DNA of 64,000 bases. Source: Lentzea atacamensis (lineage in GTDB: Bacteria; Actinomycetota; Actinomycetes; Mycobacteriales; Pseudonocardiaceae). The translations under genes and the position numbers were made by a program. The stretch is from contig NZ_QLTT01000003.1 in assembly GCF_003269295.1 (NCBI RefSeq), positions 868,001 to 932,000 on the forward strand, written 5' to 3'. Below, in pieces: positions 40,399 through 60,140 of this stretch. The notes below the pieces were generated by a model. That model saw nothing but the letters and a program-made list of their open reading frames with translations, was not told the origin of the DNA and searched no databases. Every line of letters begins with the position of its first letter. Position 1 is the stretch's first letter.

Positions 40399-43300
40399 AT
40401 GCAACGCAGACTCAAGCGATTACTGTCGGTGTTGGCCGGTGCTCTGGTGGTGATGGGGCTAGTCACGCCGACCACCCCGGCACAGGCTCATGGCCTGCAC
40501 GTCCTGCTGTTCACCAAGACCGCTTCCGGCGCCTACCGGCACGACTCCATCCCGGCGGGCATCACGATGATGGAGCAGCTGGCCGCCCAGCGCGGCTGGG
40601 AGATGACCAAGACCGAGGACGCGTCGGTCTTCAACGACGCCACGCTCGCCACGTTCAACGTGATCGTGATGCTGCAGACGTCGGGCATGGTGTGGGACAC
40701 CGCCGCGCAGCGCACCGCGATGCAGAACTACGTGCGCAGGGGCGGCGGTGTGGTGGCGATCCACAACGCCACCGACATGAACATCGAGCAGCAGTTCCCG
40801 TGGTGGGACCAGATGCTCGGCATGACCATGACCCAGCACTCGTCGATCGTGTCCGGCACCGCCAAGGTCGCAGACCGCAAGCACCCGTCCGGGGCGGGTC
40901 TTCCGGACCGGTGGACGCGGACCGAGGAGTGGTACAACTTCAACCGCTCCGCGCGCGGCGACGTGCACGTGCTGGTCACCGCGGACGAGTCGACCTACGA
41001 CGCGGGTCCGTCCAAGATGGGCTTCGACCACCCGATCTCGTGGTGCCGCAACTTCGAGGGCGGCCGGGTGTGGGCGACCGGCATGGGCCACCAGGCCTCG
41101 AGCTACTCCGAACCCCTGTTCCGCCAGCACATCACCGGCGGTGTGGAGTCGGCGGGCGGCATCGTGGGCGCGGACTGCGGTCCGACGGTGTGGAGCAGCT
41201 TCCAGAAGGTGCAGCTCGACAACTCCGTCATCGCGCCGAGCACGGTCGACGTCGCCCCCGACGGCCGGGTGTTCTTCAACGAGTACAACGGCAACCTGAA
41301 GATCTACAAGCCGGACACCAGGACGACGGTCGTCGCGGGCACGCTCAGCGTCTACGGCCAGGGACAGAACTCGGAGGACGGCCTGGTCGGCATGGCGCTC
41401 GACCCGGCGTTCGCGACCAACAAATGGGTCTACCTGAACTACTCCCCGGCGGGGACCCAGGAGATCGCCAGGATTTCGCGCTTCACCATGAACGGCGACA
41501 GATTGGACATGGCCAGCGAGAAGGTCCTGCTGACCCTGCCCGCGTCACGGCGTGAAGAGCCGGGGCACACCGGCGGCCAGCTGAACTTCGGGCCGAACGG
41601 CAACCTCTACATCAGCGTCGGCGACGACATCAACCCCAACGGCAACTCCGGCGGCTACGCGCCGATCGACGAACGCCCCGGCCGCGCGCTGTACGACGCG
41701 CAGGGCACCGCGGCCAACACCAACGACCTGCGCGGCAAGATCCTGCGCATCCACCCGGAGCCCGACGGCACCTACACCGTGCCCGCGGGCAACCTGTTCG
41801 CGCCCGGCACCGCCAGGACGCGGCCGGAGATCTACGCGATGGGCTTCCGCAACGCGTTCCGGTTCAGCGTGCACCCGACCACCGGCGTGATCTACGCGGC
41901 CGACTACGGCCCGGATGCGGGCAGCGACAACCCGAACCGCGGTCCGGCGGGACTCGTGGAGTGGAACGTGATCAAGTCGCCGGGCAACTACGGCTGGCCG
42001 TACTGCGTGGCGAACAACATCGCCTACAACGACTGGAACTTCGCCAGCAACACGTCCGGACCGAAGTTCAACTGCGCGTCGCCGGTCAACAACTCGCCCA
42101 ACAACACCGGTCTGACGACGCTGCCCGCGGCGCGGGGAGCGGACCTCTGGTACGGCAACGGTGCGAACGGCAACGCCTTCCCGGAGATGGGGCCGAGCAG
42201 CGGCGGCGAGGCGCCGATGGCGTTCCCCGCCTACCAGTACAACGCGAGCAACCCGTCGACGACGAAGTTCCCCGCCTACTTCGACCAGACGCCGTTCTTC
42301 GGAGAGTGGTCCCGCAACCGCATGTGGGAGTTCCGGATGGACTCCTCCGGGAACCTGCTGAAGGTCAACAACTTCCTGTCGAACATGTCGTTCGCCTCCC
42401 CGATGGACGCGAAGTTCGGCCCCGACGGATCGATGTACCTGCTGACCTGGGGCACGGGCTGGGACGACAACAAACCGTTGCCCGGCGCCGGATTGTGGCG
42501 CATCGACTACACGACCACCGGTGAACGGCTTCCGGTGGCGCAGGCGTCCGGCACTCCGCTGACCGGTCCGTCGCCGCTGACGGTGCGCTTCTCCAGCGCA
42601 GGTTCCAACGACCCCGGTGGTCTTCCGCTGACCTACCGGTGGACCTTCGGCGACGGCGCCACGTCCACGGAGCCGAACCCCACGCACACCTACACCACGA
42701 GCGGGAAGTTCACCGCCCAGCTCACCGTCACCAACTCGGCCGGCAAGATCGGTACCGCGAACGTGACCATCAGCGTGGGCAACACCGAGCCGGTCGTGCG
42801 GTTCACCGGTCCCGTCGACGGCGGCATGATCAACTTCGGTGACCCCATCCCGTACACGTTGTCCGTGACCGATCAGGAGGACGGCACGATCGACTGCGGC
42901 AGGGTGAACGTCCAGTCGAACATGGGCCACGACTCGCACAAGCACCCGATCGGCTCGCCCACGACCGGCTGCTCGGGGGCGCTTCAGACGGGCATCGACT
43001 CCGGGCACCAAGGGCTCAACGTGCACGTGATCGGCTCTGCCGAGTACACGGACAAGGGCGCGAACGGAGTGCCGCCTCTGACCGGCAGCGCGCAGGTCGT
43101 GCTGCAGCCCAAGCAGAAGCAGGCCGAGTTCTTCAACGGCTCGTCCGGCGTGACCATCGTGTCGCAGGCGGGCGCCGAGTCGGGCGCCAAGGTCGGCGAC
43201 ATCGGCAACAACGACTGGATCTCGTTCAAACCGGTCAACTTCACCGGGATCAACCAGGTGTCGTTCCGGGTGTCCGCGCCTTCCGGTGGCGGGGGCACGA

Positions 43301-43893
43301 TCGAACTGCGCGCCGGTTCGCCGACGGGCCAGCTCATCGCGTCGTCGCCGGTCACCAGCACGGGTGGCTCAAACACCTACGCCAGCACGCCCGCGGTGAA
43401 CGTGACCGCGCCGTCCGGCACCGTCGAGCTGTTCGCGGTGTTCAAGACGTCGTCGTCGGCCAGTTTCGACCTCGACTCGATCACCTACGTCGGACCGGGC
43501 GCCGGCGGGCCCGGTGGTGGCACCGCGAAGGAGATCGTCGGCGCGAGCGGCAAGTGCGTCGACGTCAACGGTGCCAGCTCGACCGACGGCGCGAAGGTGC
43601 AGCTGTGGACCTGCAACGGCGGCGCCAACCAGAAGTGGACGCAGAACGGCACCACGCTGCGGTCGCTGGACAAGTGCCTCGACGTCACCGGCAACAGCCA
43701 GGCCGACGGCGCGATCGTCCGGTTGTGGTCGTGCAACGGCTCGTCCGGGCAGAACTGGACCGCGCAGTCCGACGGCTCGATCCGCAACGGCACGAAGTGC
43801 CTGGACGCGAACGGCGCCAGTTCGGCGGACGGCACCCAGCTCATCATCTGGACCTGCCACGGCGGGACCAACCAGAGGTGGACCTTCCGGTAG
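40399..43893 (+). CDS. Secreted ThuA - GSDH - PKD - CBM6-like - ricin lectin multidomain protein
   Basis: This 1164-residue exported protein combines a signal peptide (1-30) and ThuA domain (32-245; VLLFTKTASGAYRHDSIPAG). A GSDH propeller (about 264-707; DERPGRALYDAQGTAANTND), PKD (710-795), beta-rich segment (796-905), CBM6-like domain (906-1030) and ricin lectin with three repeats (1036-1164) follow. It unites in one chain the activities carried by the separate genes at 31231 and 34103, without DUF1080. It probably binds plant polysaccharide and oxidises or cleaves a sugar at the cell exterior. GGAGGAG precedes the ATG; the gene follows the isomerase by 31 bases. Confidence 0.92.
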   Translation: MQRRLKRLLSVLAGALVVMGLVTPTTPAQAHGLHVLLFTKTASGAYRHDSIPAGITMMEQLAAQRGWEMTKTEDASVFNDATLATFNVIVMLQTSGMVWDTAAQRTAMQNYVRRGGGVVAIHNATDMNIEQQFPWWDQMLGMTMTQHSSIVSGTAKVADRKHPSGAGLPDRWTRTEEWYNFNRSARGDVHVLVTADESTYDAGPSKMGFDHPISWCRNFEGGRVWATGMGHQASSYSEPLFRQHITGGVESAGGIVGADCGPTVWSSFQKVQLDNSVIAPSTVDVAPDGRVFFNEYNGNLKIYKPDTRTTVVAGTLSVYGQGQNSEDGLVGMALDPAFATNKWVYLNYSPAGTQEIARISRFTMNGDRLDMASEKVLLTLPASRREEPGHTGGQLNFGPNGNLYISVGDDINPNGNSGGYAPIDERPGRALYDAQGTAANTNDLRGKILRIHPEPDGTYTVPAGNLFAPGTARTRPEIYAMGFRNAFRFSVHPTTGVIYAADYGPDAGSDNPNRGPAGLVEWNVIKSPGNYGWPYCVANNIAYNDWNFASNTSGPKFNCASPVNNSPNNTGLTTLPAARGADLWYGNGANGNAFPEMGPSSGGEAPMAFPAYQYNASNPSTTKFPAYFDQTPFFGEWSRNRMWEFRMDSSGNLLKVNNFLSNMSFASPMDAKFGPDGSMYLLTWGTGWDDNKPLPGAGLWRIDYTTTGERLPVAQASGTPLTGPSPLTVRFSSAGSNDPGGLPLTYRWTFGDGATSTEPNPTHTYTTSGKFTAQLTVTNSAGKIGTANVTISVGNTEPVVRFTGPVDGGMINFGDPIPYTLSVTDQEDGTIDCGRVNVQSNMGHDSHKHPIGSPTTGCSGALQTGIDSGHQGLNVHVIGSAEYTDKGANGVPPLTGSAQVVLQPKQKQAEFFNGSSGVTIVSQAGAESGAKVGDIGNNDWISFKPVNFTGINQVSFRVSAPSGGGGTIELRAGSPTGQLIASSPVTSTGGSNTYASTPAVNVTAPSGTVELFAVFKTSSSASFDLDSITYVGPGAGGPGGGTAKEIVGASGKCVDVNGASSTDGAKVQLWTCNGGANQKWTQNGTTLRSLDKCLDVTGNSQADGAIVRLWSCNGSSGQNWTAQSDGSIRNGTKCLDANGASSADGTQLIIWTCHGGTNQRWTFR

Positions 43894-44641: not shown

Positions 44642-45657
44642 TGGCTGGTCATGGCGTTCGGCCGGCGACCGATGCCGTCCGCCTCCTGGTCGACGCGCGC
44701 ACAGTGATCGAGCCCGTGCACCGCGCCACGATCGACGAACTCGGTCCGGCGCTGCGTCGCGTCGCCGGCTACCACATCGGGTGGTGGGACGCGGACGGCA
44801 GACCCGCACCGTCGGGCGGCAAGGCGCTGCGGCCCGCTCTCACCCTCGCCTGTGCCCGCGCGCTCGCCGACGGGCCTGTGCCGCCGGACGTGATCGCGGC
44901 CGCGACGGCGGTGGAGCTGATCCACGACTTCTCGCTCCTGCACGACGACGTCATGGACGGCGACGAAACGCGGCGGCACCGTCCCTCGGCGTGGGCGGCG
45001 TTCGGGACCACGGCGGCGATCCTCGCCGGGGACGTCCTGGTGGGACTCGCGCTGCGCCGGGTGCCGCCGTCCCTGACGGGTGTACTCGCCGACGTGCTCG
45101 TCGACCTGTGCGAAGGGCAGTCGGCCGACGTGGCGGCCGAGACCGCGACGTCGGTCGACGTCGAGCAGTGCCTCGCCACCGCGGCGAGGAAGACCGGTGC
45201 CCTGCTGGGGGCAGCCTGCCGCCTTGGTGCTCTCGCGGCCGGAGCCGACCCTGCCGCCGCTGACCACTACCGGTGGTTCGGGGTGCACCTCGGCGTCGCC
45301 TTCCAGCTGGTCGACGACATCCTCGGCATCTGGGGCGACCCGGCGCGGACCGGCAAACCGGCCCACTCCGACATCAGGGCCCGCAGAAGAACCCTGCCGG
45401 TCGTGGCGGCACTCGCCTCGGACACGTCGGCGGGGCGCCGGCTCGGACGGATCTACCTCGAGGACCGCGGTGAGGACGAGACCGTGCCGTGCATCGCGGA
45501 GCTCGTCGCGGAGGCGGGTGGCCGGGCGTGGGCGGAGGCCGAGGCGGACCGCCGCGTGCGGCTGGCGTTCGACTGCCTGGACCGAGCGGATCCGCGTCCG
45601 TCCGCCGCCCTGGATCTGCGCGATCTGGCCCGGCTGGTCACGAGCAGGGACCGCTGA
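44641..45657 (+). CDS. Polyprenyl (short-chain isoprenyl) diphosphate synthase
   Basis: This enzyme condenses isopentenyl diphosphate with an allylic diphosphate. The 338-residue protein has the first aspartate motif DDVMD (without the two-residue insertion of bacterial FPP synthases), an RRHRP segment after it, and the second motif VDDILGIWGDP. These features fit actinobacterial geranylgeranyl or related synthases; chain length cannot be read with confidence. It starts within the stop of the membrane-anchored protein gene. It likely supplies the prenyl donor for the UbiA-type transferase at 51737. Confidence 0.92.
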   Translation: MAGHGVRPATDAVRLLVDARTVIEPVHRATIDELGPALRRVAGYHIGWWDADGRPAPSGGKALRPALTLACARALADGPVPPDVIAAATAVELIHDFSLLHDDVMDGDETRRHRPSAWAAFGTTAAILAGDVLVGLALRRVPPSLTGVLADVLVDLCEGQSADVAAETATSVDVEQCLATAARKTGALLGAACRLGALAAGADPAAADHYRWFGVHLGVAFQLVDDILGIWGDPARTGKPAHSDIRARRRTLPVVAALASDTSAGRRLGRIYLEDRGEDETVPCIAELVAEAGGRAWAEAEADRRVRLAFDCLDRADPRPSAALDLRDLARLVTSRDR

Positions 45658-45692: not shown

Positions 45693-46865
45693 TCAGCCCA
45701 GTTGCTGGTCCACGACGCTGGGTGACAGGACGTGGTGGACCACCATGGCCGCCGCCCCGAGCACGCCTGCCACCTCGCCCGCACGGGACGGCACGATGCG
45801 GAGGTTCTCCGTGGCCAGCGGCAGTGAACGGCAGTAGACCGCCTCCCGCACTCCGGCCAGCAGCATCTCACCCGCTGCGGCGAGGTCGCCGCCGACCACG
45901 ATCAGCGAGGGGTTGACCATGCTGACACAGGCGGCGAGCACCTCGCCGATGGTGCGGCCCGCATGCCGGATCGCCTGACCGGCTTCGACGTTGCCCGCGC
46001 GGACCAGGGCGACGACGTCGGCGCTCGAGTGGGCCTCCACCCCCTTTGCTCGCAACCGGGCCACTATCGCGGAGCCGCTGGCGACGGCCTCCAGGCACCC
46101 GGTGTTGCCACAGCCGCAGGGAGCGTCGTCGCTGCCAGGCGCCTGGATGTGGCCGAGATCCCCCGCCGCGCCGACCGCGCCGCGGTGCAGGACGCCGTTG
46201 CTGATGAAACCCGAGCCGATCCCGGTCGCGACCTTCACGACGATCATGTGGTCGGTGCCGGGGAAGGAGTGCGCGTGCTCGCCCAGTGCCATCAGGTTGG
46301 CCTCGTTGTCCACCAGCACCGGCACGCCGAACTCGGCGCGGACGTGCGCCGGCACGTCGAAGCCGTCCCAGGCGGGCATGATCGGCGGGTGGTTGGGCTT
46401 GCCCGACGAGTGTTCGACCGGGCCGGGCAGGCCGATGCCGACACCGGCCGGCGAGACGGACACGCCGGCGTCCCTGACCAGTTCCCTCCAGGTCTCGGCC
46501 AGGCGCGCCAGCACCGGCTCCGGCCCGTCGGCGATGTCCAGGCTGAGCCGGCGCATGGCCAGCGGGCCGCCGGCGAGGTCGGTCACGGCGACGGTCGCGT
46601 GCGTGGCGCCGACGTCGGCGGCGAGGACGGAGCGGGCGGCCGCGTTGAACGCCAGCCGGCCGGCGGGCCTGCCGCCGGTGGACACCCTGATGCCGTGGTC
46701 GGTGAGGAACCCCGCGTCCCGCAGTGCGTCGAGCCTGGTTCGGACCGCGGCGCGGGTCAGGCCTGTCTGGCTCACCAGTTCGGCACGCGTGCGCGGCACT
46801 CCGTCGAGCAGCAGCCGCAGCAGCTGCCCAGGAGAAGCCGCAGGAGCCCAAGGTACGTCCGGCAC
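45693..46865 (-). CDS. ROK-family transcription regulator, divergent to the ABC/Ebo operon
   Basis: This 390-residue paralogue of the regulator at 38210 has an N-terminal winged HTH (about 10-65; RTRAELVSQTGLTRAAVR). Its ROK domain carries the zinc motif CGCGNTGCLE and VDNEANLMALGEH. The start is a GTG at 46863-46865. Its divergent position to the sugar ABC operon, with an inverted repeat between them, makes it the obvious repressor of that operon. It converges on the prenyl synthase gene. Confidence 0.92.
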   Translation of the reverse strand: MPDVPWAPAASPGQLLRLLLDGVPRTRAELVSQTGLTRAAVRTRLDALRDAGFLTDHGIRVSTGGRPAGRLAFNAAARSVLAADVGATHATVAVTDLAGGPLAMRRLSLDIADGPEPVLARLAETWRELVRDAGVSVSPAGVGIGLPGPVEHSSGKPNHPPIMPAWDGFDVPAHVRAEFGVPVLVDNEANLMALGEHAHSFPGTDHMIVVKVATGIGSGFISNGVLHRGAVGAAGDLGHIQAPGSDDAPCGCGNTGCLEAVASGSAIVARLRAKGVEAHSSADVVALVRAGNVEAGQAIRHAGRTIGEVLAACVSMVNPSLIVVGGDLAAAGEMLLAGVREAVYCRSLPLATENLRIVPSRAGEVAGVLGAAAMVVHHVLSPSVVDQQLG

Positions 46866-46926
46866 ACGCCCAGTGAACCAGGGAACGCCGAGTAATGGTG
46901 GTGTTCATCCGTAAGACATGTGCGCT

Positions 46927-46944
46927 TTGGCAGTGATGTGCCAA
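46927..46944. promoter_or_regulatory. Candidate ROK operator TTGGCA-N6-TGCCAA
   Basis: An exact inverted repeat 8 bases upstream of the -35 element of the ABC operon, between it and the divergent ROK gene. A second dyad, ATTGAC-AGTC-GTCAAT (46951-46966), overlaps the -35 element itself. Confidence 0.65.
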
Positions 46945-46951
46945 CTTATGA

Positions 46952-46981
46952 TTGACAGTCGTCAATAGTGGCCCCTACCTT
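46952..46981 (+). promoter_or_regulatory. Leaderless-type promoter of the ABC/Ebo operon
   Basis: TTGACA (46952-46957), an 18-base spacer and TACCTT (46976-46981) are followed after 6 bases by the ATG of the ATPase gene. The mRNA therefore probably starts at the start codon, and a repressor bound to the overlapping dyad would block it. Confidence 0.65.
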
Positions 46982-46987
46982 CGCCTC

Positions 46988-48508
46988 ATGGCTGTGACCC
47001 ACGGAACATCGGGGGCGGATGACCCCGTTGCCGTCGTACGGCTGGAGGGCATCGAGAAGAGCTTCTTCGGCGTACCGGTGCTGCGCGGCGTCGATCTCCT
47101 GCTGCACGCGGGTGAGGTGCATGCGCTGGTGGGGGAGAACGGTGCGGGCAAGTCGACGCTGCTGAAGGTGCTGGCCGGCGTCCACCGGCCCGACTCGGGA
47201 CGGATCGTGGTGCGGGACGAGGAGGTCTCGTTCACCGCGCCGCGCGACGCGCAGGCGGCGGGGATCGCGATCATCCACCAGGAGTTCACCCTCCTCGAGC
47301 ACCGCACGGTGGCCGAGAACGTGTTCCTGGGCCGGGAACCGGTGCGGCGCGGTCAGGTGGACCGGCGCGCGATGGAGACCCAGACCCGGCAGCTGCTCGA
47401 CTGGCTGGGAGAGGACGGCATCGAGCCCGGCACCGAGGTGGCCCGGTTGTCCGTGGCCCGCAAACAGGTGGTGGAGATCGTCAAGGCGCTGTCGGCGGAC
47501 GCCAAGGTCCTCGCGATGGACGAGCCCACCGCGGCGTTGGCGGACAACGAGGTCGAGCTGCTGTACGGCCTGGTGCGCAGACTTCGGGATCGTGGGATCG
47601 CGATTCTCTACGTGTCGCACCGGATGCGTGAAGTGTTCGACCTCAGCTCACGGATCACGGTGTTGAAGGACGGTGCGTTCGTCACCTGTGTGCCGACCGC
47701 CGATCTGGACACCGATCAGGTCGTGCGGCACATGGTCGGCCGTCCGCTGGAAGCGCTGTATCCCGAACGTACGAGCGTCCCCGGTGCGGTGCGGATCGCG
47801 TTGCGGGGAGCGGGAAACGAGCGGGTGCGGAACCTGACGTTCGACGTGCGGGCCGGGGAGATCGTGGGCCTCGCCGGGTTGCAGGGCTCCGGTCGTTCCG
47901 CGATCGCGCGGGCGATCTGGGGCGTCGAGCCGTTCACGACCGGCACCGTGGAACTCGATGGCGTGCCGACTCGCGTCACCGGTCCGCGGACGGCCGTCCG
48001 CAAGGGCATCGGGTACGTCACCGAGGATCGCAAGGGCGAAGGACTGGCGCTGCGGCAGTCGGTGCGGGACAACACCTTGCTGGTCCGTCGCGCGGCGTGC
48101 CGCGGTGCGGCGGCTCGTCAGGCCGCGGATCTGACACGGCTGCTCGGCGCGGTCGGTGTCGTCGCGCGCGGGCCGCATCAGGAAGTGCGCTACCTCTCCG
48201 GTGGCAACCAGCAGAAAGTGGTGCTGGGAAAGTGGCTCGCCGTGCGGCCACGCGTGCTGATCGTGGACGAGCCGACCCGCGGCGTCGACGTCGGCGCGAA
48301 ACAGACCCTGTACCGGTTGCTGCGCGACCTGGCGGACGACGGCATGGCGATCCTCATGATCTCGTCGGAGTTGCCGGAGCTGATCGGCATGAGCGACCGG
48401 ATCCTCGTCATGCACGAGGGCGCGCTGGCAGGTGTTCTGCCCGGCGGTGCCGACGAGGAAGCCGTGATGGGACTGGCCACCGGGCACCAGCCGGGGGCGG
48501 TGGCGTGA
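46988..48508 (+). CDS. Sugar ABC importer ATPase (RbsA/MglA type)
   Basis: This 506-residue protein has two fused nucleotide-binding domains. The first (about 14-245) has Walker A GENGAGKST, Walker B VLAMDEPTAAL and an intact H-loop (LYVSHRMREV). The second (about 260-500) has the degenerate Walker A GLQGSGRSAI usual in this family, signature LSGGNQQK and VDEPTRGVDV. It drives import of a monosaccharide or similar small sugar. No ribosome site is needed if the transcript is leaderless. It is the first gene of an operon reaching 57434. Confidence 0.95.
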   Translation: MAVTHGTSGADDPVAVVRLEGIEKSFFGVPVLRGVDLLLHAGEVHALVGENGAGKSTLLKVLAGVHRPDSGRIVVRDEEVSFTAPRDAQAAGIAIIHQEFTLLEHRTVAENVFLGREPVRRGQVDRRAMETQTRQLLDWLGEDGIEPGTEVARLSVARKQVVEIVKALSADAKVLAMDEPTAALADNEVELLYGLVRRLRDRGIAILYVSHRMREVFDLSSRITVLKDGAFVTCVPTADLDTDQVVRHMVGRPLEALYPERTSVPGAVRIALRGAGNERVRNLTFDVRAGEIVGLAGLQGSGRSAIARAIWGVEPFTTGTVELDGVPTRVTGPRTAVRKGIGYVTEDRKGEGLALRQSVRDNTLLVRRAACRGAAARQAADLTRLLGAVGVVARGPHQEVRYLSGGNQQKVVLGKWLAVRPRVLIVDEPTRGVDVGAKQTLYRLLRDLADDGMAILMISSELPELIGMSDRILVMHEGALAGVLPGGADEEAVMGLATGHQPGAVA

Positions 48509-49515
48509 GCGCCGTGCGCGAGCGGGCCCGCGGGCGCAGCGACGTGCCGCCGCGGACGAGGACGTTCGTGATCACCCCGGTCCTGGTCGTGTACCTCGCG
48601 CTGGCGGTGCTGCTGGTGGTCGGCAGTGTGCTGGTGGGCGTCCACGGAGGTGTGCTCCTCGATCACGGCGGCATTCTCAACATCCTGACGCGCGGCACGG
48701 TGCTCGGACTGGTCGCGATCGGGCAGACCCTGGTGATCGTCACCGGTTCCCTCGACCTGTCGGTGGCCTACCTGGTCGGCCTGTGCTCGCTGGTGGCCGC
48801 CGAGACGATGGCGGGCAGCCCGGCGATGATCGTGCCCGGTGTGCTGGCGGCGCTGGTGGTCGCGGCGGTGGTGGGGCTGGTCAACGGACTGGTGATCACC
48901 GTGCTGAAGGCCAACGCGTTCATCGCCACGCTGGGCGTCGCGCTGGTGCTGCGCGGCTACCTGGAGCACAACTACACAGGGCCGGCGGGCAGTGTGCCGC
49001 GCGCGTTCCAGCACATCGGCTACGACCGGATCGGACCGGTTCCGGTGGCGGCGCTGCTGATGTTGCTGCTCGCGGCGGCGGCGTGGTGGTACCTGCGGCG
49101 CACCCGCACGGGCTACCACATGTACGCAGTCGGCGGGGACGTCGACGTGGCCCGGCTGTCCGGCGTGCGCACCGGACGGACGATCGTCACCGCGCACGTG
49201 CTGTGCGCGGTCATGGCCGGGCTCGCCGGGGTGTTCCTGGCCGGTCGGCTGGGTTCGGGCGCCCCGTACGTCGGTACCGACGCCGGGTACGACCTGGAGT
49301 CGATCGCCGCCGTCGTGCTCGGCGGCACGGCCCTCGCGGGCGGTCGCGGCGGTGTGGCCGGCACCATCGGCGGCGTGCTGATCCTGTCCACATTGGACAC
49401 GATCTTCGACGACCTCGGGCTGGACTCCTTCTTCAAGGACGTCGTGCGCGGCGTCGTGCTCATCGTTGCGGTGGCGCTGTACGCCCGGCGCAGGGCTGCC
49501 AGGAGATCGACATGA
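48505..49515 (+). CDS. Sugar ABC importer permease (RbsC type), first copy
   Basis: This 336-residue membrane protein of the BPD_transp_2 family has about nine to ten helices. It has the conserved TLVIVTGSLDLSVAYLVGL after the third helix and a coupling-loop region (AVVLGGTALAGGRGGVAGTI). The GTG overlaps the ATPase stop (GTGA), and its own stop overlaps the next permease (ATGA). Two different permeases suggest a heterodimeric channel. Confidence 0.93.
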   Translation: MSAVRERARGRSDVPPRTRTFVITPVLVVYLALAVLLVVGSVLVGVHGGVLLDHGGILNILTRGTVLGLVAIGQTLVIVTGSLDLSVAYLVGLCSLVAAETMAGSPAMIVPGVLAALVVAAVVGLVNGLVITVLKANAFIATLGVALVLRGYLEHNYTGPAGSVPRAFQHIGYDRIGPVPVAALLMLLLAAAAWWYLRRTRTGYHMYAVGGDVDVARLSGVRTGRTIVTAHVLCAVMAGLAGVFLAGRLGSGAPYVGTDAGYDLESIAAVVLGGTALAGGRGGVAGTIGGVLILSTLDTIFDDLGLDSFFKDVVRGVVLIVAVALYARRRAARRST

Positions 49516-50501
49516 GAGCGCGGCCACGCCTGGCGGACGGCACCGGGCCCGTACTGGTCGTGCTGCTGATCCTGTTGGTGGGACTGGCGTTCGCCGGTCC
49601 CGCGTACGCTGAGCCCGGCGGCTACCTCGCGCTGCTCAAACGTGCGGCGCCACTCGTGGTGCTGGCCGTCGGCCAGTACTTCGTGATCGTGTCCGGTGGC
49701 TTCGACCTCTCCGTCGGCTCGCTGGTCACCGCCGAGGTGGTCGTCGCCGCCCGGCTGGTCAACGGTGATGACGCGAACACCGGGTGGGTGATCGCGCTGC
49801 TGTTGGGCTGCGGAATCCTCGTCGGGCTGGTCAACGGGCTGATCACGACGAAACTGCTGGTGCCGTCGTTCATCGTGACCCTGGGGATGCTGCTGGTGCT
49901 CGACGGTGCGGTGTTCCTGTGGTCAGGCGGAGCACCGCGCGGCGCCCTGTCCCCGTCGTTCCGCCTCATCGGCCGGGGCAGTGTTGACGTTCCGGTCCTC
50001 GGCCAGCTGCCGTGGTCGGTGATAGTGCTGCTGGTCGTGGTCGCCGCGGCGGTGTGGTTCATGCGCAGCGGAACCGGACGCACGCTGCTTGCCGTGGGGG
50101 ACAACGAGAACGTGGTCCGGCTCGCGGGCGGCCGGGTGGATCGGCTGCGCCTGCTCGCGTTCGTGCTGTCGGGGCTGCTCGCGTCGGTCGCCGCGATCCT
50201 GCTCGCCGGGTTCGCGGGCGTGTCGGCGCAGGTCGGTGAGGGCCTGGAGTTCCGTGCCATCACCGCCGTGGTGCTCGGCGGTGTCCTGCTCGGCGGTGGC
50301 CGCGGTTCCGTGGTCGCCGCGGCCGCGGGCGCGCTGTCGCTCGAAGCGCTCTTCTCCCTGTTGAACCTGCTGGGCGTCTCGGGCGCGCTCGAGTCCGCCG
50401 TGCAGGGCGTGATCATCATCGCGGCGGTGGCCTACGCCGCCCACGGGGCCGGGCTGTGGCGGGTGCTGCGGCCGCACCGGCCCGTTCCGGACACCGCCTG
50501 A
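49512..50501 (+). CDS. Sugar ABC importer permease (RbsC type), second copy
   Basis: This 329-residue BPD_transp_2 membrane protein has the family block QYFVIVSGGFDLSVGSLVTA and the loop AVVLGGVLLGGGRGSVVAAA. It pairs with the upstream permease. The start ATG overlaps the upstream stop. A 42-base gap with CGAGGAG then leads to the binding-protein gene. Confidence 0.93.
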   Translation: MRARPRLADGTGPVLVVLLILLVGLAFAGPAYAEPGGYLALLKRAAPLVVLAVGQYFVIVSGGFDLSVGSLVTAEVVVAARLVNGDDANTGWVIALLLGCGILVGLVNGLITTKLLVPSFIVTLGMLLVLDGAVFLWSGGAPRGALSPSFRLIGRGSVDVPVLGQLPWSVIVLLVVVAAAVWFMRSGTGRTLLAVGDNENVVRLAGGRVDRLRLLAFVLSGLLASVAAILLAGFAGVSAQVGEGLEFRAITAVVLGGVLLGGGRGSVVAAAAGALSLEALFSLLNLLGVSGALESAVQGVIIIAAVAYAAHGAGLWRVLRPHRPVPDTA

Positions 50502-50543
50502 ACAACCCGCCTGAACCCCGTCGACGAAGCCGAGGAGCAGCAC

Positions 50544-51731
50544 ATGAACAGCAGATGGTCCGTCGTGGCCCTGGTGGGCGCGTTCGCGGTGGCCGGGTGT
50601 GCCAGCGACCTTCCCGCCACCCCTGGTCCCGGCGGCACGTCCGAGTCCGCCAAGGCGAAGTCGGAGTTCTTCGACCCGGCCGAGTTCGAGCGCCAGCTGC
50701 GGTTCCGCACCGCGAAGGCGACCGGGCTGGACTCCCAGGACGGTACCGCCAAGCCCTGGGAGCAGATGCTCGAACCGCAACTGGTCGACACGGCCAAGTA
50801 CGCCAAGCCCGGCGGCGGCTACCACCTCTGCTTCTCCAACGCCTCGGTGGACAACCCGTGGCGGCAGGTCGGGTTCAAGACCATGAAGGAGGAGGTGAAG
50901 CTGCACCCGGAGATCACCAAGTTCACCGTGCTGGACGCGGAGGCCAAGGACGACAAGCAGATCAGCGACATCCAGTCGCTGGCCTCCCAGGGATGTCACG
51001 CGCTGATCGTCTCGCCGAACACGACCGCCACGCTCACCCCGGCTGTCGAGGCCGCCTGCGCGACCGGCGTGCCCGTGATCGTCTTCGACCGCGGCGTCAA
51101 GACCGGTTGCCCCGTGACGTTCATCCACCCGATCGGCGGGTTCGCGTTCGGCGCGGACGGCGCGGAGTTCCTCAAGGAGAAGGTGCAGCCGGGCGGCAAG
51201 GTCCTCGCGTTGCGCATCCTGCCCGGCGTCGACGTCCTGGAACAGCGCTGGGCGGCGGCCAACGAGATCTTCTCCGGCAGCCAGGTGAAGGTCGTGGGCG
51301 TCGAGTTCACCAACGGCGACGCGGCCAAGACCAAGAGCATCGTGAACGAGTACATCCAGCGCGAAGGCAAGATCGACGGCGTCTGGATGGACGCGGGCGC
51401 CACCGCGGTCGCGGCCGTGGAGGCGTTCCAGGACGCCGGCGCGGCGATCCCGCCGTTCGTGGGGGAGGACCAGCAGGACTTCCTGCGGATGTGGGCCGAC
51501 GAGAAGATGACCGCGGTCGCCCCGACCTACCCGACCTACCAGTGGCGCACGCCGGTCATCGCCGCCCTGCGCGTCCTCGGCGGCAAGCAGGTGCCGAAGG
51601 AATGGGTGCTGCCGCAGCCGAAGGTCACCCAGGACACCCTCAAGGACTTCATCAAGCAGGACATGCCGCCGCTGCACTACGCCATGTGCGGCTGCGAGGG
51701 CATGCCCGGCTACCCGGCGCCCTGGAAGTAG
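50544..51731 (+). CDS. Sugar ABC importer substrate-binding lipoprotein
   Basis: This 395-residue exported lipoprotein has a signal ending in a lipobox (AVAGC, Cys19) and a periplasmic-binding-protein type I fold. Typical stretches are SNASVDNPWRQVGFKTMKEE near the start and ALIVSPNTTATLTPAVEAAC. It delivers the ligand to the permeases. Odd features are several cysteines (such as the C-terminal AMCGCEGMPG) and a long N-terminal extension of about 80 residues before the binding fold. The ligand is unknown; the neighbouring enzymes suggest a pentose or keto-sugar. It is followed after 5 bases by the prenyltransferase gene. Confidence 0.92.
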   Translation: MNSRWSVVALVGAFAVAGCASDLPATPGPGGTSESAKAKSEFFDPAEFERQLRFRTAKATGLDSQDGTAKPWEQMLEPQLVDTAKYAKPGGGYHLCFSNASVDNPWRQVGFKTMKEEVKLHPEITKFTVLDAEAKDDKQISDIQSLASQGCHALIVSPNTTATLTPAVEAACATGVPVIVFDRGVKTGCPVTFIHPIGGFAFGADGAEFLKEKVQPGGKVLALRILPGVDVLEQRWAAANEIFSGSQVKVVGVEFTNGDAAKTKSIVNEYIQREGKIDGVWMDAGATAVAAVEAFQDAGAAIPPFVGEDQQDFLRMWADEKMTAVAPTYPTYQWRTPVIAALRVLGGKQVPKEWVLPQPKVTQDTLKDFIKQDMPPLHYAMCGCEGMPGYPAPWK

Positions 51732-51736
51732 CCGGG

Positions 51737-52519
51737 ATGATGAAGGCGTACGTGGACCTGGTGCGGGCACCAGCGGCACTCACGGTGCTGGGTGACACGC
51801 TGGTCGGCGCAGGAAAACCGTTGCGGGGCAAGGGCTTGTTGCTACCGCTGGCGTCCGTCTCGTTGTACTGGGCGGGAATGGCGCTCAACGACTGGGCCGA
51901 CCGCGACCTGGACGCGGTCGAACGACCGGAACGACCGATCCCGTCCGGCCGGATCAGCCCGGACGCGGCCCTGGCCACCGCAGCCGGACTGACCGCGCTC
52001 GGCGTCGGTCTCGCCGCGGCTGCCGGTCGCAACGCTCTGCCGCTCGCCGCGGCGGTGTGGGCTTACGACACCGTGCTGAAGGCCACTCCCGCCGGACCGT
52101 TCGCCATGGCAGCCTGCCGGGCGTTCGACGTGCTGCTGGGTGGCCGGGCCGTCCTGCCCGCCGGACTGATGGCCGCGCACACCCTTGGTGTGACGGTGTT
52201 GTCGCGGGGTGAGGTGCACGGCACGTCACCCCGCACGGCGAAAGCGGTCCTGTCGGGCACGGTGCTGACGGCGGTGGCGGCAGGCGTCTCCACCCGGCGG
52301 TTCACCGGGATCGCGGCGGCGCTGGGCTACGCGGTCACGGTAGGGCGTGCGCAGTGGCAGGTGGTCCGGCAGCCGTCGGGCGAGGCCGTCCGCACCGCGA
52401 CGAAGGAGGGCATCCACGGCATGGTGCTGCTCCAGTCCGCGCTGACCGAGCACGGCGCGGCGCTGCCGCTCGTGCTGCCGCTGGCCCGAGCGCTGAGCAG
52501 GAAGGTGAGCCCGACATGA
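51737..52519 (+). CDS. eboC: UbiA-type prenyltransferase (SCO3242 / EboC-like)
   Basis: This 260-residue integral membrane enzyme of the UbiA superfamily should transfer a prenyl chain to a small acceptor. The first aspartate motif is NDWADRDLD (residues about 52-60), followed by RPERPIPSG; the second region is less canonical (YDTVLKATPAGPFAM). Members with this sequence style are called SCO3242 family or EboC and occur with EboA, EboE and related genes. It directly follows the binding-protein gene, and its stop overlaps the EboA gene (ATGA). The donor may come from the synthase at 44641; the acceptor is unknown. Confidence 0.85.
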   Translation: MMKAYVDLVRAPAALTVLGDTLVGAGKPLRGKGLLLPLASVSLYWAGMALNDWADRDLDAVERPERPIPSGRISPDAALATAAGLTALGVGLAAAAGRNALPLAAAVWAYDTVLKATPAGPFAMAACRAFDVLLGGRAVLPAGLMAAHTLGVTVLSRGEVHGTSPRTAKAVLSGTVLTAVAAGVSTRRFTGIAAALGYAVTVGRAQWQVVRQPSGEAVRTATKEGIHGMVLLQSALTEHGAALPLVLPLARALSRKVSPT

Positions 52520-53844
52520 CGTTCCAGCTCGGCTACGGCACCAACGGGTTCGCCAACCACCGGCTCGACGACGCTCTCGCCGTGATCGCCGATCTCGGCT
52601 ACACGGCGGTGGCGCTCACCCTCGACCACCACCACCTCGACCCGTTCGCCGGCGACGTCGTCAAGCAGACCGATCGGCTTGCCGCACGCCTGCACGAACT
52701 GGGACTGGGCGTCGTCGTGGAGACCGGCGCGCGGTACCTGCTCGACCCGCGCCGCAAGCACCACCCGACCCTGGTCAGCTCGGACCAGGCGGTACGGGTC
52801 GACTTCCTGGTGCGTGCCAAGCAGATCGCGCTGGACCTCGGCGCGGACTGCGTGTCGTTCTGGTCCGGAGTGGGATCCGCGGACGACTGGGACCACCTGA
52901 GGTCGGGCGTCGCCGCGGTGCTGGAGAGCGGGCCGGGAGTCCCGATGGGACTGGAGCCGGAGCCGGGCATGGTCGTGCAGTGGCTCGACCAGGCACTGCG
53001 GCTGCGGACCGAGCTCGGGAACCCGGAGGAGCTGAGGATCACCCTCGACGTCGGGCACTGCGTCGCGGTCGAGCCGCAGGACGCGGCGGCGTGCATCAGG
53101 CAGGCGGGCGAGCTGCTCGTCAACGTGCAGCTCGACGACATGCTGCCCGGTGTGCACGAGCACCTGGAGTTCGGTGAGGGACAGCTGGACCTGCCCGCCA
53201 CGCTCGCCGCGCTGACCGGCATCGGCTACACCGGCGTCGCCGCGGTGGAGCTGCCCCGGCACAGCCACGCCGCACCGGACGTGGCGGGGCGGGCACTGCG
53301 GGCGCTGCGCGCGGCGGAGTGGCTGGCCGAGGCGGAACGGGCGGTCCGCGCCGATCCCGGCGCGATCGACACCCTGTTCCCCGCGGCGGGAAGGGCGGTG
53401 GGAGCAGGACAGGACGCCGCACGGGTCCGCCTGCTCACCGCGTTCGCCGACGTGTCCGGCGATCCGGTCGACGGCCTCACGAGGCTCTACCGGTACGGCA
53501 CCTCCGCGGAACGGCGAGGTGTCCTGCGCGGGCTGGCCGAGCTGGGGGACCGGGCTCCGGCAGCCGGGGTCGCGTTGGTCGAGGACGCCCTGCGCAGCAA
53601 CGAGACCGACCTGGTCGCGGCGGCACTCGGCCCGTTCGCCACCCGGCACCTCGGCAGGCACGCGTGGCGGCACGGCGTGCTCAAGTGCCTGTTCATGGGC
53701 ATTCCGCTGACCGTGGTCGACGGTCTCGACCGGCACTCGGACGCGGAGCTGCTGCGCATGGTCGCCGCGTTCGCCGACGAACGCCGCGCGGCCGGCCGTC
53801 CGGTGCCCGCCGACGCTCTCGCCCTGCTCGGAAAGGCTTCGTGA
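52516..53844 (+). CDS. eboA: Fused TIM-barrel isomerase and EboA domain protein
   Basis: This 442-residue protein has two parts. Residues about 1-275 form an AP-endonuclease-2-type TIM barrel with putative metal ligands in LEPEPGMVVQWLDQAL, LDVGHCVAVE and VAAVELPRHSH. Residues about 295-440 are an EboA domain (VRLLTAFADVSG, VEDALRSNETDLVAAALGPF, HAWRHGVLKCLFMGIPL). EboA has been linked to metabolite traffic, for example scytonemin export in cyanobacteria, but its chemistry is unknown. Fusion to an isomerase suggests both act on one sugar-derived intermediate. The start overlaps the prenyltransferase stop; the stop overlaps the TatD start (TGATG). Confidence 0.85.
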   Translation: MTFQLGYGTNGFANHRLDDALAVIADLGYTAVALTLDHHHLDPFAGDVVKQTDRLAARLHELGLGVVVETGARYLLDPRRKHHPTLVSSDQAVRVDFLVRAKQIALDLGADCVSFWSGVGSADDWDHLRSGVAAVLESGPGVPMGLEPEPGMVVQWLDQALRLRTELGNPEELRITLDVGHCVAVEPQDAAACIRQAGELLVNVQLDDMLPGVHEHLEFGEGQLDLPATLAALTGIGYTGVAAVELPRHSHAAPDVAGRALRALRAAEWLAEAERAVRADPGAIDTLFPAAGRAVGAGQDAARVRLLTAFADVSGDPVDGLTRLYRYGTSAERRGVLRGLAELGDRAPAAGVALVEDALRSNETDLVAAALGPFATRHLGRHAWRHGVLKCLFMGIPLTVVDGLDRHSDAELLRMVAAFADERRAAGRPVPADALALLGKAS

Positions 53845-54698
53845 TGCGCATCTTCGACCCGCACATCCACATGACGTCCCGCACCACCGACGACTACGAG
53901 GCCATGCGCGACGCCGGCGTGCGAGCGCTCGTCGAGCCCGCGTTCTGGCTGGGGCAGCCGCGGACGAGCGTCGGGTCGTTCGTCGACTACTTCGACAGCC
54001 TGCTCGGGTGGGAACGGTTCCGCGCCGCCCAGTTCGGCATTGCACACCACTGCGCGCTCGCCCTGAACCCCAAGGAGGCCAACGACCCCCGGTGCACCGA
54101 GGTGCTGGACGTGCTGCCGCGCTACCTGGCCAAGGACGGTGTGGTCGCGGTCGGCGAGGTCGGGTACGACTCGATGACGCAGGAGGAAGACGACGCGTTC
54201 GCACGCCAGCTGGAGCTGGCGCTCAGGCACGACCTGCCGGTCCTCGTGCACACACCGCACCGGGACAAGCAGGCGGGCACGAAGCGAACGCTGGACGTGG
54301 TCCGCGAGTCGGGCCTGGCGCCGCACCGCGTCCTGGTCGACCACCTCAACGAGACCACCGTCCGGATGGTGGCGGACGCGGGCTGCTGGATGGGGTTCTC
54401 CGTCTACCCGGACACCAAGATGGACGAGGCTCGGATGGTGGCGCTGCTCGCCGAGTACGGCACCGAGCGGATGCTGGTCAACTCCGCCGCCGACTGGGGC
54501 CGGTCCGATCCGCTGAAGACCCACAAGACCGGGTTGGCGATGCTGGACGCCGGGTTCGGCGAGTCCGAAGTGGACACGGTGTTGTGGCACAACCCGGTCG
54601 AGTTCTACGGCCAGAGCGGCAGGCTGGCGCTCGAGCCGGTGGCGGCGGGTGCGGTCGACGCGGCCACCGGCAGCTCGGTGCTGCGGGGTGAACGGTGA
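53844..54698 (+). CDS. eboB: TatD-type metal-dependent hydrolase (EboB-like)
   Basis: This 284-residue amidohydrolase-fold protein begins with the metal motif DPHIHM. It also has VVAVGEVGYDS, VLVHTPHRDK and VDHLNETT, and ends the barrel with NSAADWGRSDP. It matches the TatD-like member of Ebo clusters (EboB). The TatD family includes nucleases and lactone- or ester-hydrolysing enzymes, so the substrate is open. It is translationally coupled to both neighbours. Confidence 0.85.
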   Translation: MRIFDPHIHMTSRTTDDYEAMRDAGVRALVEPAFWLGQPRTSVGSFVDYFDSLLGWERFRAAQFGIAHHCALALNPKEANDPRCTEVLDVLPRYLAKDGVVAVGEVGYDSMTQEEDDAFARQLELALRHDLPVLVHTPHRDKQAGTKRTLDVVRESGLAPHRVLVDHLNETTVRMVADAGCWMGFSVYPDTKMDEARMVALLAEYGTERMLVNSAADWGRSDPLKTHKTGLAMLDAGFGESEVDTVLWHNPVEFYGQSGRLALEPVAAGAVDAATGSSVLRGER

Positions 54699-55786
54699 TC
54701 GCCTACTGCACCAACGTCCACCCGGCTCCCGACCTCGCGGGCATCCTGGCTCAGCTCGACCGGCATGCGGTCCGGGTGCGGGAGGCGCTGGAGGCGGACA
54801 CGCTCCCCTTGGGACTGTGGCTGCCCGCGCCGGTCGCACGAGGACTCGCGGAGGACGGCACCGCACTGCAGCACTTCCGCGCCGAGCTTGCGAGCAGAGG
54901 ACTGACGGTCTCCACGCTCAACGCGTTCCCGTACGGTGACTTCCACGACGAGGTGGTCAAGCACGCGGTGTACTTCCCGACGTGGACCGATTCGCGCCGC
55001 CTGCGGTACACAGTGGACTGTGCGGCCGTGCTGGCTGACCTGTTGCCCGATTCCGCGTCCTACGGCAGCATCTCGACCCTGCCACTGGCCTGGCGGGAGC
55101 CGTGGACGGGCCGCGACGACGACCGTGCCGCGGAGGCTCTCGCCGAGCTCACCCTGTCCCTGCGCGCCGAGACCCGCCGGCACGGCAGACCGATCAGGCT
55201 GGCCGTCGAGCCGGAGCCGGGTTGTGTGCTGGACACCGTCGCCGACGCGGTCGGCTGGCTGGCCGGCCGGGTCGATCCCGACCACATCGGGATCTGCCTG
55301 GACACCTGTCACCTCGCGGTGTCGTTCGCCGATCCGGCCGAGACGGTCGCGTCGATCCGCCGGGCAGGGCTGGAGGTGGTCAAGGTGCAGGCGTCGGCGG
55401 CACTGGAGGTGGCGGAACCCGGCACTGCGGCGGGCAGGCGGGCGATCGCGGAGTACAGCGAACCCCGCTACCTGCACCAGGTCCGGGAGAACACCCCCGG
55501 CGGTGTCCTGGCGGCGGACGACCTGCCGGAGGCGTTCGAGACCCTGCCCGCCGAGCACCCGTGGCGCGTGCACTTCCACGTGCCGCTGCACGCTGTTCCG
55601 CCCGCACCGCTCACGTCGACCACCGACGTGCTCGTGGCCGCTGTAGCGGCGGTGGACCCCGGCACGCACGTCGAGGTGGAGACCTACACCTGGACCGTGC
55701 TGCCGGGTGCGGGCGACCTCGCTGACGGCATCGCGGCGGAACTGCGCTGGGCGGCGCAGCACCTGCGGACGGGAGTGGCGGTGTGA
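54695..55786 (+). CDS. eboE: EboE-type TIM-barrel protein
   Basis: This 363-residue xylose-isomerase-like TIM barrel is typical of EboE metabolite traffic proteins. It shows YCTNVHPAPDL at the start, TLNAFPYGDFHDEVVK, the metal glutamate in AVEPEPGCVLDT, and ICLDTCHLAVSFADP. Its C-terminal third has VHFHVPLHAV and VEVETYTWTVL. EboE is thought to act on a sugar-like precursor, but no reaction is established. The GTG start overlaps the TatD stop; the stop overlaps the next gene (GTGA). Confidence 0.88.
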   Translation: MIAYCTNVHPAPDLAGILAQLDRHAVRVREALEADTLPLGLWLPAPVARGLAEDGTALQHFRAELASRGLTVSTLNAFPYGDFHDEVVKHAVYFPTWTDSRRLRYTVDCAAVLADLLPDSASYGSISTLPLAWREPWTGRDDDRAAEALAELTLSLRAETRRHGRPIRLAVEPEPGCVLDTVADAVGWLAGRVDPDHIGICLDTCHLAVSFADPAETVASIRRAGLEVVKVQASAALEVAEPGTAAGRRAIAEYSEPRYLHQVRENTPGGVLAADDLPEAFETLPAEHPWRVHFHVPLHAVPPAPLTSTTDVLVAAVAAVDPGTHVEVETYTWTVLPGAGDLADGIAAELRWAAQHLRTGVAV

Positions 55787-57171
55787 AACCGCTGGTGGTC
55801 CTCAACGTCGTCGGCATGACGCCGGCGCTCCTCGAACACATGCCCAATCTCTCGCGGCTGGGCTGGCAGGCCGAGCTGGGCACGGTGCTGCCCGCCGTGA
55901 CGTGCAGCGCGCAGGCCACGCTGCTCACCGGTCTCACCCCGGCGCAGCACGGGATAGTCGGCAACGGCTGGTACTTCCGCGACCTGGGCGAGATTCACCT
56001 GTGGCGTCAGCACAACCGCCTCGTCGGAGGGGAGAAGCTCTGGGAGACCGCGCGTCGCGCCCATCCCGGCTACACCGCCGCCAACATCTGCTGGTGGTAC
56101 GCGATGGGCGCCTCGACCGACATCACCGTGACCCCTCGGCCGATCTACCACGCGGACGGGCGCAAGTCGCCGGACTGCTACGTCCGCCCACCCGGCCTGC
56201 ACGACGAACTCGTCGGAGCTCTGGGCGAGTTCCCGCTCTTTCAGTACTGGGGCCCCACGGCGGCACTGGCGTCGAGCGAGTGGATCATCGGCGCCGCGCG
56301 GAAAGTCCTCGCCGAAAGGCGGCCTGACCTGTTGCTGGTCTACGTGCCACATCTGGACTACGACCTGCAGCGGTTCGGACCGTCCTCACCGCAGGCGGTC
56401 AAGGCGGCGGCGGACGTGGACCGGGCGCTGGCGCCTCTGCTGGCCGACGCGTCGGACGCCACCATCGTGGCGTTGTCGGAGTACGGCATCACCGACGCAC
56501 GCCGCCCGGTCGACATCAATCGGGCGTTGCGAGCAGCAAACCTGCTCGAGGTCTACTCGCAGTCCGGGATGGAGTACCTGGATCCGTGGACGTCGCGGGC
56601 GTTCGCGGTGGCCGACCACCAGATCGCGCACGTGTACGTCGCCGATCCGGCCGATCTCCCGAGGACGAGAGCGGTCCTCTCGGACCTTCCGGGTGTCGAC
56701 GTGCTGTACGGCCGGGACGCGCAGGCGTCCGTCGGGCTGGATCACGAGCGGTCCGGTGAACTGGTGGCGGTGGCCGAGCCGGACGCATGGTTCACCTACT
56801 ACTACTGGACCGATGACCACCGCGCTCCGGACTTCGCCCGTGGTGTGGACATTCACCGCAAACCCGGCTACGACCCCGCCGAACTGTTCTTCGACCCGGC
56901 CGACCCGCTCGTCAAGGCCAGAGCTGGGTTGAACCTGGCCCGCAAGAAGCTCGGGCTGAGATACACGATGAACGTCGTGCCGCTGGACCCGTCGTGCGTG
57001 CGCGGCACGCACGGCAGGCTGCCCGACCGGGCGGCGGATGGACCGGTGCTCTTGTGCTCGGGTCCGGTGGCACCGCGGTCGGTCGAGCGCACCGGCCGGA
57101 TCACCGCGACCGAAGTCCGCAGTCTCCTGCTCGAACTGCAGGGGATTCCCGCGGAGGAGCTCACCCGATGA
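55783..57171 (+). CDS. eboF: Alkaline-phosphatase-superfamily phosphodiesterase (EboF-like)
   Basis: This 462-residue nucleotide pyrophosphatase/phosphodiesterase-fold enzyme has the nucleophile region LPAVTCSAQATLLTGLTPAQHG (catalytic Thr or Ser after VTC). Metal ligands are likely in YVPHLDYDLQRFGP, SEYGITD and the late HRKPGYDP. It matches the phosphodiesterase encoded last in Ebo clusters and may cleave a phosphate or nucleotide from an intermediate. No signal peptide is seen, so it acts in the cytoplasm. It overlaps EboE and the following HTH gene by 4 bases. Confidence 0.88.
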   Translation: MKPLVVLNVVGMTPALLEHMPNLSRLGWQAELGTVLPAVTCSAQATLLTGLTPAQHGIVGNGWYFRDLGEIHLWRQHNRLVGGEKLWETARRAHPGYTAANICWWYAMGASTDITVTPRPIYHADGRKSPDCYVRPPGLHDELVGALGEFPLFQYWGPTAALASSEWIIGAARKVLAERRPDLLLVYVPHLDYDLQRFGPSSPQAVKAAADVDRALAPLLADASDATIVALSEYGITDARRPVDINRALRAANLLEVYSQSGMEYLDPWTSRAFAVADHQIAHVYVADPADLPRTRAVLSDLPGVDVLYGRDAQASVGLDHERSGELVAVAEPDAWFTYYYWTDDHRAPDFARGVDIHRKPGYDPAELFFDPADPLVKARAGLNLARKKLGLRYTMNVVPLDPSCVRGTHGRLPDRAADGPVLLCSGPVAPRSVERTGRITATEVRSLLLELQGIPAEELTR

Positions 57172-57434
57172 TCAGCCCCTTGACCGAGGTCACCATGGCG
57201 CACCCGAATTGCGATTGCTCGGTGGTCGTGGGCAAGGAACCCACGGCGGCAACCCAGCGCCTGCTGAGGCTCATGCAAACGGGCGCGACCGACCGCGCGA
57301 TCGCCCGCGAACTCAGTGTCAGCCTGCGCACCCTGCACCGGCGCATCGCCCGGCTGCAGTCGTTGCTCGGCGTTCAGTCGCGGTTCCAGCTCGGCGTGCT
57401 CGCCGCCGAGCTGGAGTGGCTCCGTCCGGGGTGA
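57168..57434 (+). CDS. Small LuxR-type helix-turn-helix protein
   Basis: This 88-residue protein is little more than a GerE-like HTH (LLRLMQTGATDRAIARELSV then RTLHRRIARLQSLLG). Relatives are usually the last 70 residues of a 300-residue regulator with a TrmB-like sensor. Here there is only a 25-residue start with a CDC segment. The ATG overlaps the phosphodiesterase stop, so it is made with the operon and could feed back on it. It could also be the tail of a lost regulator. Confidence 0.65.
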   Translation: MISPLTEVTMAHPNCDCSVVVGKEPTAATQRLLRLMQTGATDRAIARELSVSLRTLHRRIARLQSLLGVQSRFQLGVLAAELEWLRPG

Positions 57435-57518
57435 ACGAGACGCGACCGAACGTGTGCCGCTCGAAAGTCGTCACCGCAGCGTGGCAGCGCATCTCTTCCA
57501 GGCTGGGAGCATGCTCGG

Positions 57519-57686: not shown

Positions 57687-57719
57687 GCTGCAGTGATCGG
57701 GTTCTGGTGTTCCGGCGGC

Positions 57720-60137: not shown

Positions 60138-60140
60138 AGG

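Follow-up and report, generated by a model that had tools for sequence, protein, structure and literature searches.

The window analysed here is a stretch of 64,000 nucleotides from the 9.3-Mb genome of Lentzea atacamensis (contig NZ_QLTT01000003.1, positions 868,001 to 932,000), and at its positions 46988-57434 ten co-directional genes on the plus strand join a sugar importer of the CUT2 type of ATP-binding cassette (ABC) transporters to genes of an Ebo pathway (Table 1). An earlier note on this DNA had counted eleven genes, although its own list named ten. The nearly universal short overlaps that it described, with 42 nucleotides as the largest gap, are borne out: with the start codons chosen, seven of the nine junctions are 4-nucleotide overlaps, and the coordinates leave gaps of 42 nucleotides between permease 2 and the sugar-binding protein (SBP) and of 5 nucleotides between the SBP and the UbiA prenyltransferase. 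The order ATPase, permease, permease, SBP, UbiA, TIM/EboA, TatD, EboE and EboF is kept in all eight comparable Lentzea loci (L036-L039, L041-L044), in which 5 to 12 bases separate the SBP stop from the UbiA start. Because both order and spacing are kept in these eight loci, the arrangement is not due to chance, and the junction of importer and Ebo genes is a real, conserved operon fusion. In Lentzea the two parts look like one operon, and the spacing suggests a single transcript.

The importer part has all the components of a CUT2 system, namely a tandem-domain ATPase, RbsC-type permeases and a periplasmic-binding-protein lipoprotein, whose N-terminal motif (Table 1) we take to be a lipobox. 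The AraG/RbsA, RbsC and RbsB-like models match these proteins, every one of them below the equivalog cut-off, and therefore no substrate can be named. Against solved binding proteins the SBP scores at most 65 bits, and its AlphaFold model from 14 close homologues is weak, with a predicted local distance difference test value (pLDDT) of 58. The nearest named records of the SBP are Lentzea species with up to 97% identity (best 80 of 383 relatives).

On the Ebo side, NCBIfam cut-offs are passed by the SCO3242-type prenyltransferase (307 bits, cut-off 260), the EboA domain (146, cut-off 50) and EboE (NF035939; 420, cut-off 250), and the window UbiA reaches 126 bits with the EboC model itself, which is below the cut-off of 250. 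The aspartate motif NDxxDxxxD of EboC is intact (N51, D52, D55 and D59 in all 78 sequences), and Y110, D111, K115, R128 and D131 are conserved in 76-78 of the 78. Likewise, EboE, EboF and TatD of the window retain the polar residues that at least 95% of the aligned sequences share (87, 85 and 85 sequences, respectively). In the AlphaFold2 model of the TIM-EboA fusion (pLDDT 92.6) the barrel matches the ketose 3-epimerase fold and the EboA half is predicted to be all-helical. Judged by conserved residues and predicted folds, the Ebo proteins of the operon appear to be functional enzymes.

The divergently encoded regulator ROK2 is 87-98% identical in seven of the eight comparable Lentzea loci (L042 retains only a 13% stretch). 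The repeats TTGGCA...TGCCAA and ATTGAC...GTCAAT in the gap between ROK2 and the ATPase are partly conserved across eight aligned sequences and are candidate ROK operators; the first of them also scored as a terminator-like stem (one found versus 2.6 in shuffles). A sigma-70 scan of positions 46700-57900 returned no promoter-like site, with the reservation that actinobacterial promoters may differ from the consensus scanned. The gene of the small helix-turn-helix (HTH) protein at the end of the operon is present in 11 of the 60 family loci introduced below (L036-L044, L080, L081). Directly downstream of the operon, a two-component system of a histidine kinase and a LuxR-type response regulator is encoded on the opposite strand (58407-60788, minus).

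Table 1. Features of the fused operon and its upstream neighbourhood, in window coordinates
Feature	Position	Strand	Basis or remark
CUT2 ABC ATPase, two nucleotide-binding domains	46988..48508	+	profile match
CUT2 permease 1	48505..49515	+	profile match
CUT2 permease 2	49512..50501	+	profile match
Lipoprotein sugar-binding protein (SBP)	50544..51731	+	profile match; N-terminus ...AVAGC
EboC-type UbiA prenyltransferase (SCO3242 family)	51737..52519	+	profile match
TIM barrel-EboA fusion	52516..53844	+	profile match and AlphaFold2 model
TatD-family hydrolase (EboB)	53841..54698	+	PF01026 over gathering score
EboE	54695..55786	+	NF035939
EboF-like type I phosphodiesterase	55783..57171	+	PF01663 over gathering score
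Small HTH protein, lineage-specific	57168..57434	+	GerE 23.7 bits, cut-off 23.5
Inverted repeats, candidate operators	46927..46964	.	ROK2-ATPase gap; putative operator role
ROK-family regulator (ROK2), divergent from operon	45693..46865	-	window annotation
Myo-inositol-phosphate synthase (MIPS) of the ebo type, apparently in place of EboD	29450..30601	+	PF07994/PF01658
Truncated CUT2 ATPase of second (type B) importer, remnant adjoining MIPS	28551..29459	+	PF00005
GSDH-PKD-CBM6-ricin-B protein	31252..34065	+	window annotation
ThuA, 3-keto-disaccharide hydrolase (PF06439) and ricin-B protein	34211..35806	+	window annotation
ROK-family regulator (ROK1)	38252..39424	+	window annotation
Ketose 3-epimerase-like TIM barrel (SPI), PF01261	39492..40367	+	closest to ketose 3-epimerases
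ThuA-GSDH-PKD-CBM6-ricin-B protein	40447..43893	+	longest frame from 40204
Polyprenyl (geranylgeranyl diphosphate (GGPP)-type) diphosphate synthase, possible prenyl donor source	44704..45657	+	PF00348; longest frame from 44512

Contrary to the earlier note, the Ebo set is not complete: four EboD queries gave no significant match in the window, and what the window has in its place is a MIPS, encoded 21 kb upstream of UbiA. In most relatives the MIPS gene directly precedes the UbiA prenyltransferase gene. The comparison covers 86 ebo loci, made up of 60 from the family Pseudonocardiaceae, 18 from other Actinomycetota, three Streptomyces plasmids and five from other phyla; the family loci were chosen from above-cut-off places in 132 genomes and include all 28 genera with a match. 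MIPS is encoded in 71 of the 86 loci, EboD in five (in none of the 60 family loci), neither in ten and both in none. Eight of the ten loci with neither gene are Lentzea loci, whose genomes all carry MIPS elsewhere, and the other two (L076 and L185) sit in genomes with two EboE copies. Among Lentzea genomes, the ebo-type MIPS is present in 9/9 with EboE versus 0/15 without it, and an Ino1-like housekeeping protein with 26-29% identity to the window MIPS occurs in all 24. That the window MIPS could itself be the housekeeping Ino1 is ruled out by a separate Ino1 in the same genome (G000:C2:232051, 28% identical). The solved structure closest to the window MIPS is the Archaeoglobus enzyme (PDB 1u1i, 211 bits); K263, K267 and K295 of the window protein, retained by 73-74 of 74 sequences, align with its K274, K278 and K306, presumably the catalytic lysines. 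Thus a MIPS paralogue apparently stands in for EboD in this variant of the pathway, and activity on glucose 6-phosphate is predicted. A plasmid of Gemmatirosa (L224) carries MIPS-type ebo genes together with Gfo-like and SCO6571-like genes; as this host belongs to the Gemmatimonadota, the MIPS-type variant is not limited to Actinomycetota.

The association of importer and Ebo genes that the earlier note had proposed extends well beyond Lentzea. Ebo regions were fetched as 20 kb (12 kb upstream and 8 kb downstream), and 20 control regions of 20 kb were taken from the same genomes at a shift of 1.5 Mb. Of the 60 family loci, 41 have CUT2 pieces inside these 20 kb, all co-oriented with ebo, versus 0/20 control regions. 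Sixteen loci were extended by about 14 kb upstream (nine of the 19 piece-less family loci, L093, in which part of an importer was present from the outset, and six of a second genus of the class, g53, possibly Streptomyces), and a co-oriented importer appeared in all 16. After extension, CUT2 genes are found upstream of ebo in 50 of the 60 family loci, a linkage thus conserved in relatives; the remaining ten (L063, L079, L069, L074, L076, L078, L085, L086, L092 and L094) were covered at 20 kb only, and the region of L063 reaches the contig end. In L079, from a Saccharothrix-type genome, an SBP gene fragment before MIPS (12154-12381) is an apparent scar of importer loss. The importer type of the window itself occurs in 13 of the 60 family loci, and most others have a second CUT2 importer with an ATPase about 40-44% identical (type B). 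Seen from the importer side, in the best 80 of 383 SBP relatives, ebo genes stand beside 30 loci in four arrangements: seven fused, three in the order SBP-MIPS-UbiA, six co-directional with intervening genes and 14 divergent. The co-occurrence search suggested by the earlier note also supports the association: of the 65 family genomes in which the SBP scores at least 360 bits, 59 have an EboE match, versus 76 of the 232 that lack the SBP, and EboE over the cut-off is present in 25 of 30 genomes chosen from the unlinked importer loci versus 18 of 396 from a sample of the phylum, all counted without regard to phylogeny and with a partial overlap of the 65-genome and 30-genome sets. In Azospirillum (L179, 17951-22578), an Lsr-type (autoinducer-2, AI-2) ABC importer and deoC lie beside an EboD-type ebo cluster.

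An importer dedicated to Ebo, as the earlier note had put it, is not what the relatives show. A PF01261 ketose 3-epimerase-like gene (SPI) follows the SBP in 68 of the 80 importer loci, and 48 of these have no ebo genes beside them. In the window, the genes near SPI include those of ThuA/glucose-dehydrogenase proteins that carry CBM6 and ricin-B domains, one of the proteins having a 3-keto-disaccharide hydrolase domain; DUF1080 proteins have been tied to 3-keto-disaccharide cleavage in the part of the literature drawn on here (PMC9007349). In the type B locus L050, a Gfo/Idh protein is nearest to levoglucosan dehydrogenase (344 bits, below the LgdA cut-off of 650), and the best solved relative of the SPI2 protein is 2zds (SCO6571), followed by a 2-hydroxy-3-keto-glucal hydratase. 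No LgdA-type dehydrogenase was found among the annotated genes of the window. These companion enzymes indicate ketose or 3-keto-sugar processing first, and by them the imported substrate is probably a ketose or a 3-keto-sugar.

The neighbourhood of MIPS retains traces of a second importer. In another Lentzea genome (L203), MIPS is preceded by genes of a further CUT2 ATPase and permease, of a Gfo/Idh protein and of an SCO6571-like protein. About 4.9 kb of this region is missing from the window, where the similarity ends near 29381 and restarts near 29416, and this accounts for the ATPase fragment adjoining MIPS; L202 shares the short arrangement of the window. Unlike this type B remnant, the importer joined to UbiA is intact. 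The polyprenyl synthase gene product is IdsB-like and encapsulin-cargo-like, with both scores below the cut-off. The GSDH proteins of the window were also considered as relatives of ScyD/ScyE and rejected, as they have no significant similarity to the Streptomyces ScyD/ScyE.

With some hesitation, and at somewhat less than an even chance, we favour the view that an operon for sugar uptake was joined to an actinobacterial MIPS-type Ebo pathway which would build a prenylated cyclitol. The suggestion of the earlier note that the imported sugar serves Ebo as precursor or ligand is a hypothesis. Gene content, spacing, recurrent linkage and co-occurrence were observed directly; from there we infer a mechanism of five steps. 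ROK2 would sense the sugar and control the fused operon. The lipoprotein and the CUT2 importer would then bring in a monosaccharide or keto-sugar, plausibly freed by the lectin-bearing ThuA, glucose-dehydrogenase and 3-keto-disaccharide-hydrolase proteins encoded upstream, and the ketose 3-epimerase may help to channel it to hexose phosphate. In the third step, which we regard as the best supported of the five, MIPS at 29450 would cyclise glucose 6-phosphate to inositol phosphate, the role that EboD is thought to have elsewhere. EboC would add a prenyl chain, for which the adjacent GGPP-type synthase is a possible source, and TIM-EboA, TatD, EboE and EboF may finally tailor a membrane-borne cyclitol product that is used at or beyond the membrane.

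Several observations weigh against this view. Among the other Actinomycetota, the 20 kb fetched at first lack any CUT2 piece at 15 of the 18 ebo loci (six of the 15 were extended upstream and all six have an importer), and two of the three loci with such a piece have the importer on the strand opposite to ebo. CUT2 pieces are also lacking in four of the five ebo loci from other phyla, and the MIPS-ebo loci of Streptomyces plasmids have no annotated sugar importer and are adjoined by nonribosomal peptide synthetase or cytochrome bd genes. In 50 of the 80 importer loci there is no ebo gene within the fetched flanks, and of 48 SBP-EboE pairs compared, 21 are at most 15 kb apart and 27 are unlinked. 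EboE has no match in six of the 65 family genomes with the SBP and does not exceed the cut-off in five of the 30 unlinked-importer genomes, and none of these counts is corrected for phylogeny. Furthermore, the host genome itself has an EboD-related match elsewhere, a member of the cyclase family (C8, 33% to EboD) that is a candidate AroB or EboD. Flavobacterial EboC enzymes farnesylate quinoline acids in vitro, not a cyclitol (PMC9235831, in the portion used here), which calls for caution with the cyclitol model.

The most serious competitor, which we nevertheless consider rather unlikely, is that the importer serves only ketose or 3-keto-glycoside utilisation and that in Lentzea it came to lie next to Ebo by a chance rearrangement, the two being metabolically unconnected. 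The SPI gene behind the SBP in the 68 loci, including 48 of the 50 importer loci without ebo, would suit such a role, as would the likeness of the L050 Gfo protein to levoglucosan dehydrogenase and of SPI2, after SCO6571, to the 2-hydroxy-3-keto-glucal hydratase. Chance is hard to uphold, however, with four ebo arrangements, a second importer type placed similarly and co-occurrence even when the genes are unlinked. These same points stand behind the fusion of uptake and Ebo functions that we prefer.

Ebo may also be a system of metabolite export or traffic, comparable to that proposed for scytonemin monomers, with the importer taking up or recycling the exported glycoside or cyclitol. The link between ebo and the periplasmic movement of scytonemin intermediates (PMC6282210, as far as its text was used) and the ScyD/ScyE-family genes beside MIPS-ebo on two Streptomyces plasmids are in line with this, but no scytonemin-type gene is present among the annotated genes, which cover part of the window, and the Streptomyces ScyD/ScyE are not detectably similar to the window GSDH proteins. 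We judge export to be unlikely. Decidedly unlikely in our estimate is a further reading, in which actinobacterial Ebo makes a prenylated inositol-derived membrane carrier or redox partner for the secreted ThuA/glucose-dehydrogenase lectin proteins and the importer recovers the released keto-sugar, both halves forming one regulated operon in Lentzea. Very improbable, finally, is that Ebo acts downstream of import in breaking the compound down, in which case EboF, EboE and TIM-EboA would be the hydrolase and isomerases: the predicted ketose 3-epimerase fold of TIM-EboA and the type I phosphodiesterase nature of EboF would fit, yet MIPS and the UbiA prenyltransferase would hardly be needed and both retain their conserved residues.

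Ebo genes are found in many phyla, and this variant may bear on their chemistry. As EboD and MIPS never occur in the same locus among the 86, a cyclitol is suggested as the common Ebo intermediate. The recurrent pairing with two kinds of sugar importers offers a second handle on the pathway, via the ligand of the SBP.

The canonical ebo cluster of cyanobacteria, Bacteroidetes and eustigmatophyte plastids, as presented in the parts of PMC5133447 and PMC6282210 drawn on here, shares the EboA domain, EboB, EboC, EboE and EboF with the window, which differs by the lack of EboD, apparently replaced by MIPS, and by a CUT2 importer inside the operon. The same portions of these papers place EboD in the sugar phosphate cyclase superfamily and already describe an actinobacterial hybrid of a xylose-isomerase-like protein and EboA (PMC5133447), and they connect ebo with the passage of scytonemin intermediates to the periplasm (Klicki 2018, PMC6282210). 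The SCO3242-family/MIPS ebo loci of Streptomyces plasmids have the same order MIPS-UbiA-TIM-EboA-TatD-EboE-EboF, but TIM and EboA are separate genes and no CUT2 importer is annotated nearby. On two of these plasmids, ScyD/ScyE-family genes lie beside MIPS-ebo (L182, 8185-9387; L226, 5927-7126), with a multicopper oxidase and cytochrome bd genes in the vicinity. Levoglucosan dehydrogenase (LGDH) loci (PMC10066097) combine an ABC importer, Gfo/Idh, PF01261 and ROK-type regulators like the type B module of the relatives, whereas no MIPS or ebo genes are reported for them in the part of that paper considered. Ubi-297 of marine Flavobacteria is an EboC-group UbiA in an ebo cluster (PMC9235831); the legend of Figure 3 in that paper names Saccharomonospora loci, the enzymes assayed are those of Maribacter, Zobellia and Algoriphagus, and the word inositol is absent from the main text. 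In the open-access literature no link between MIPS and ebo was found, and co-mentions of EboA and inositol did not concern ebo genes as judged by title and the opening of the abstract. Ebo genes and the TIM-like/EboA hybrid are thus known already, and what appears to be new is a MIPS-type Ebo pathway with a fused CUT2 importer.

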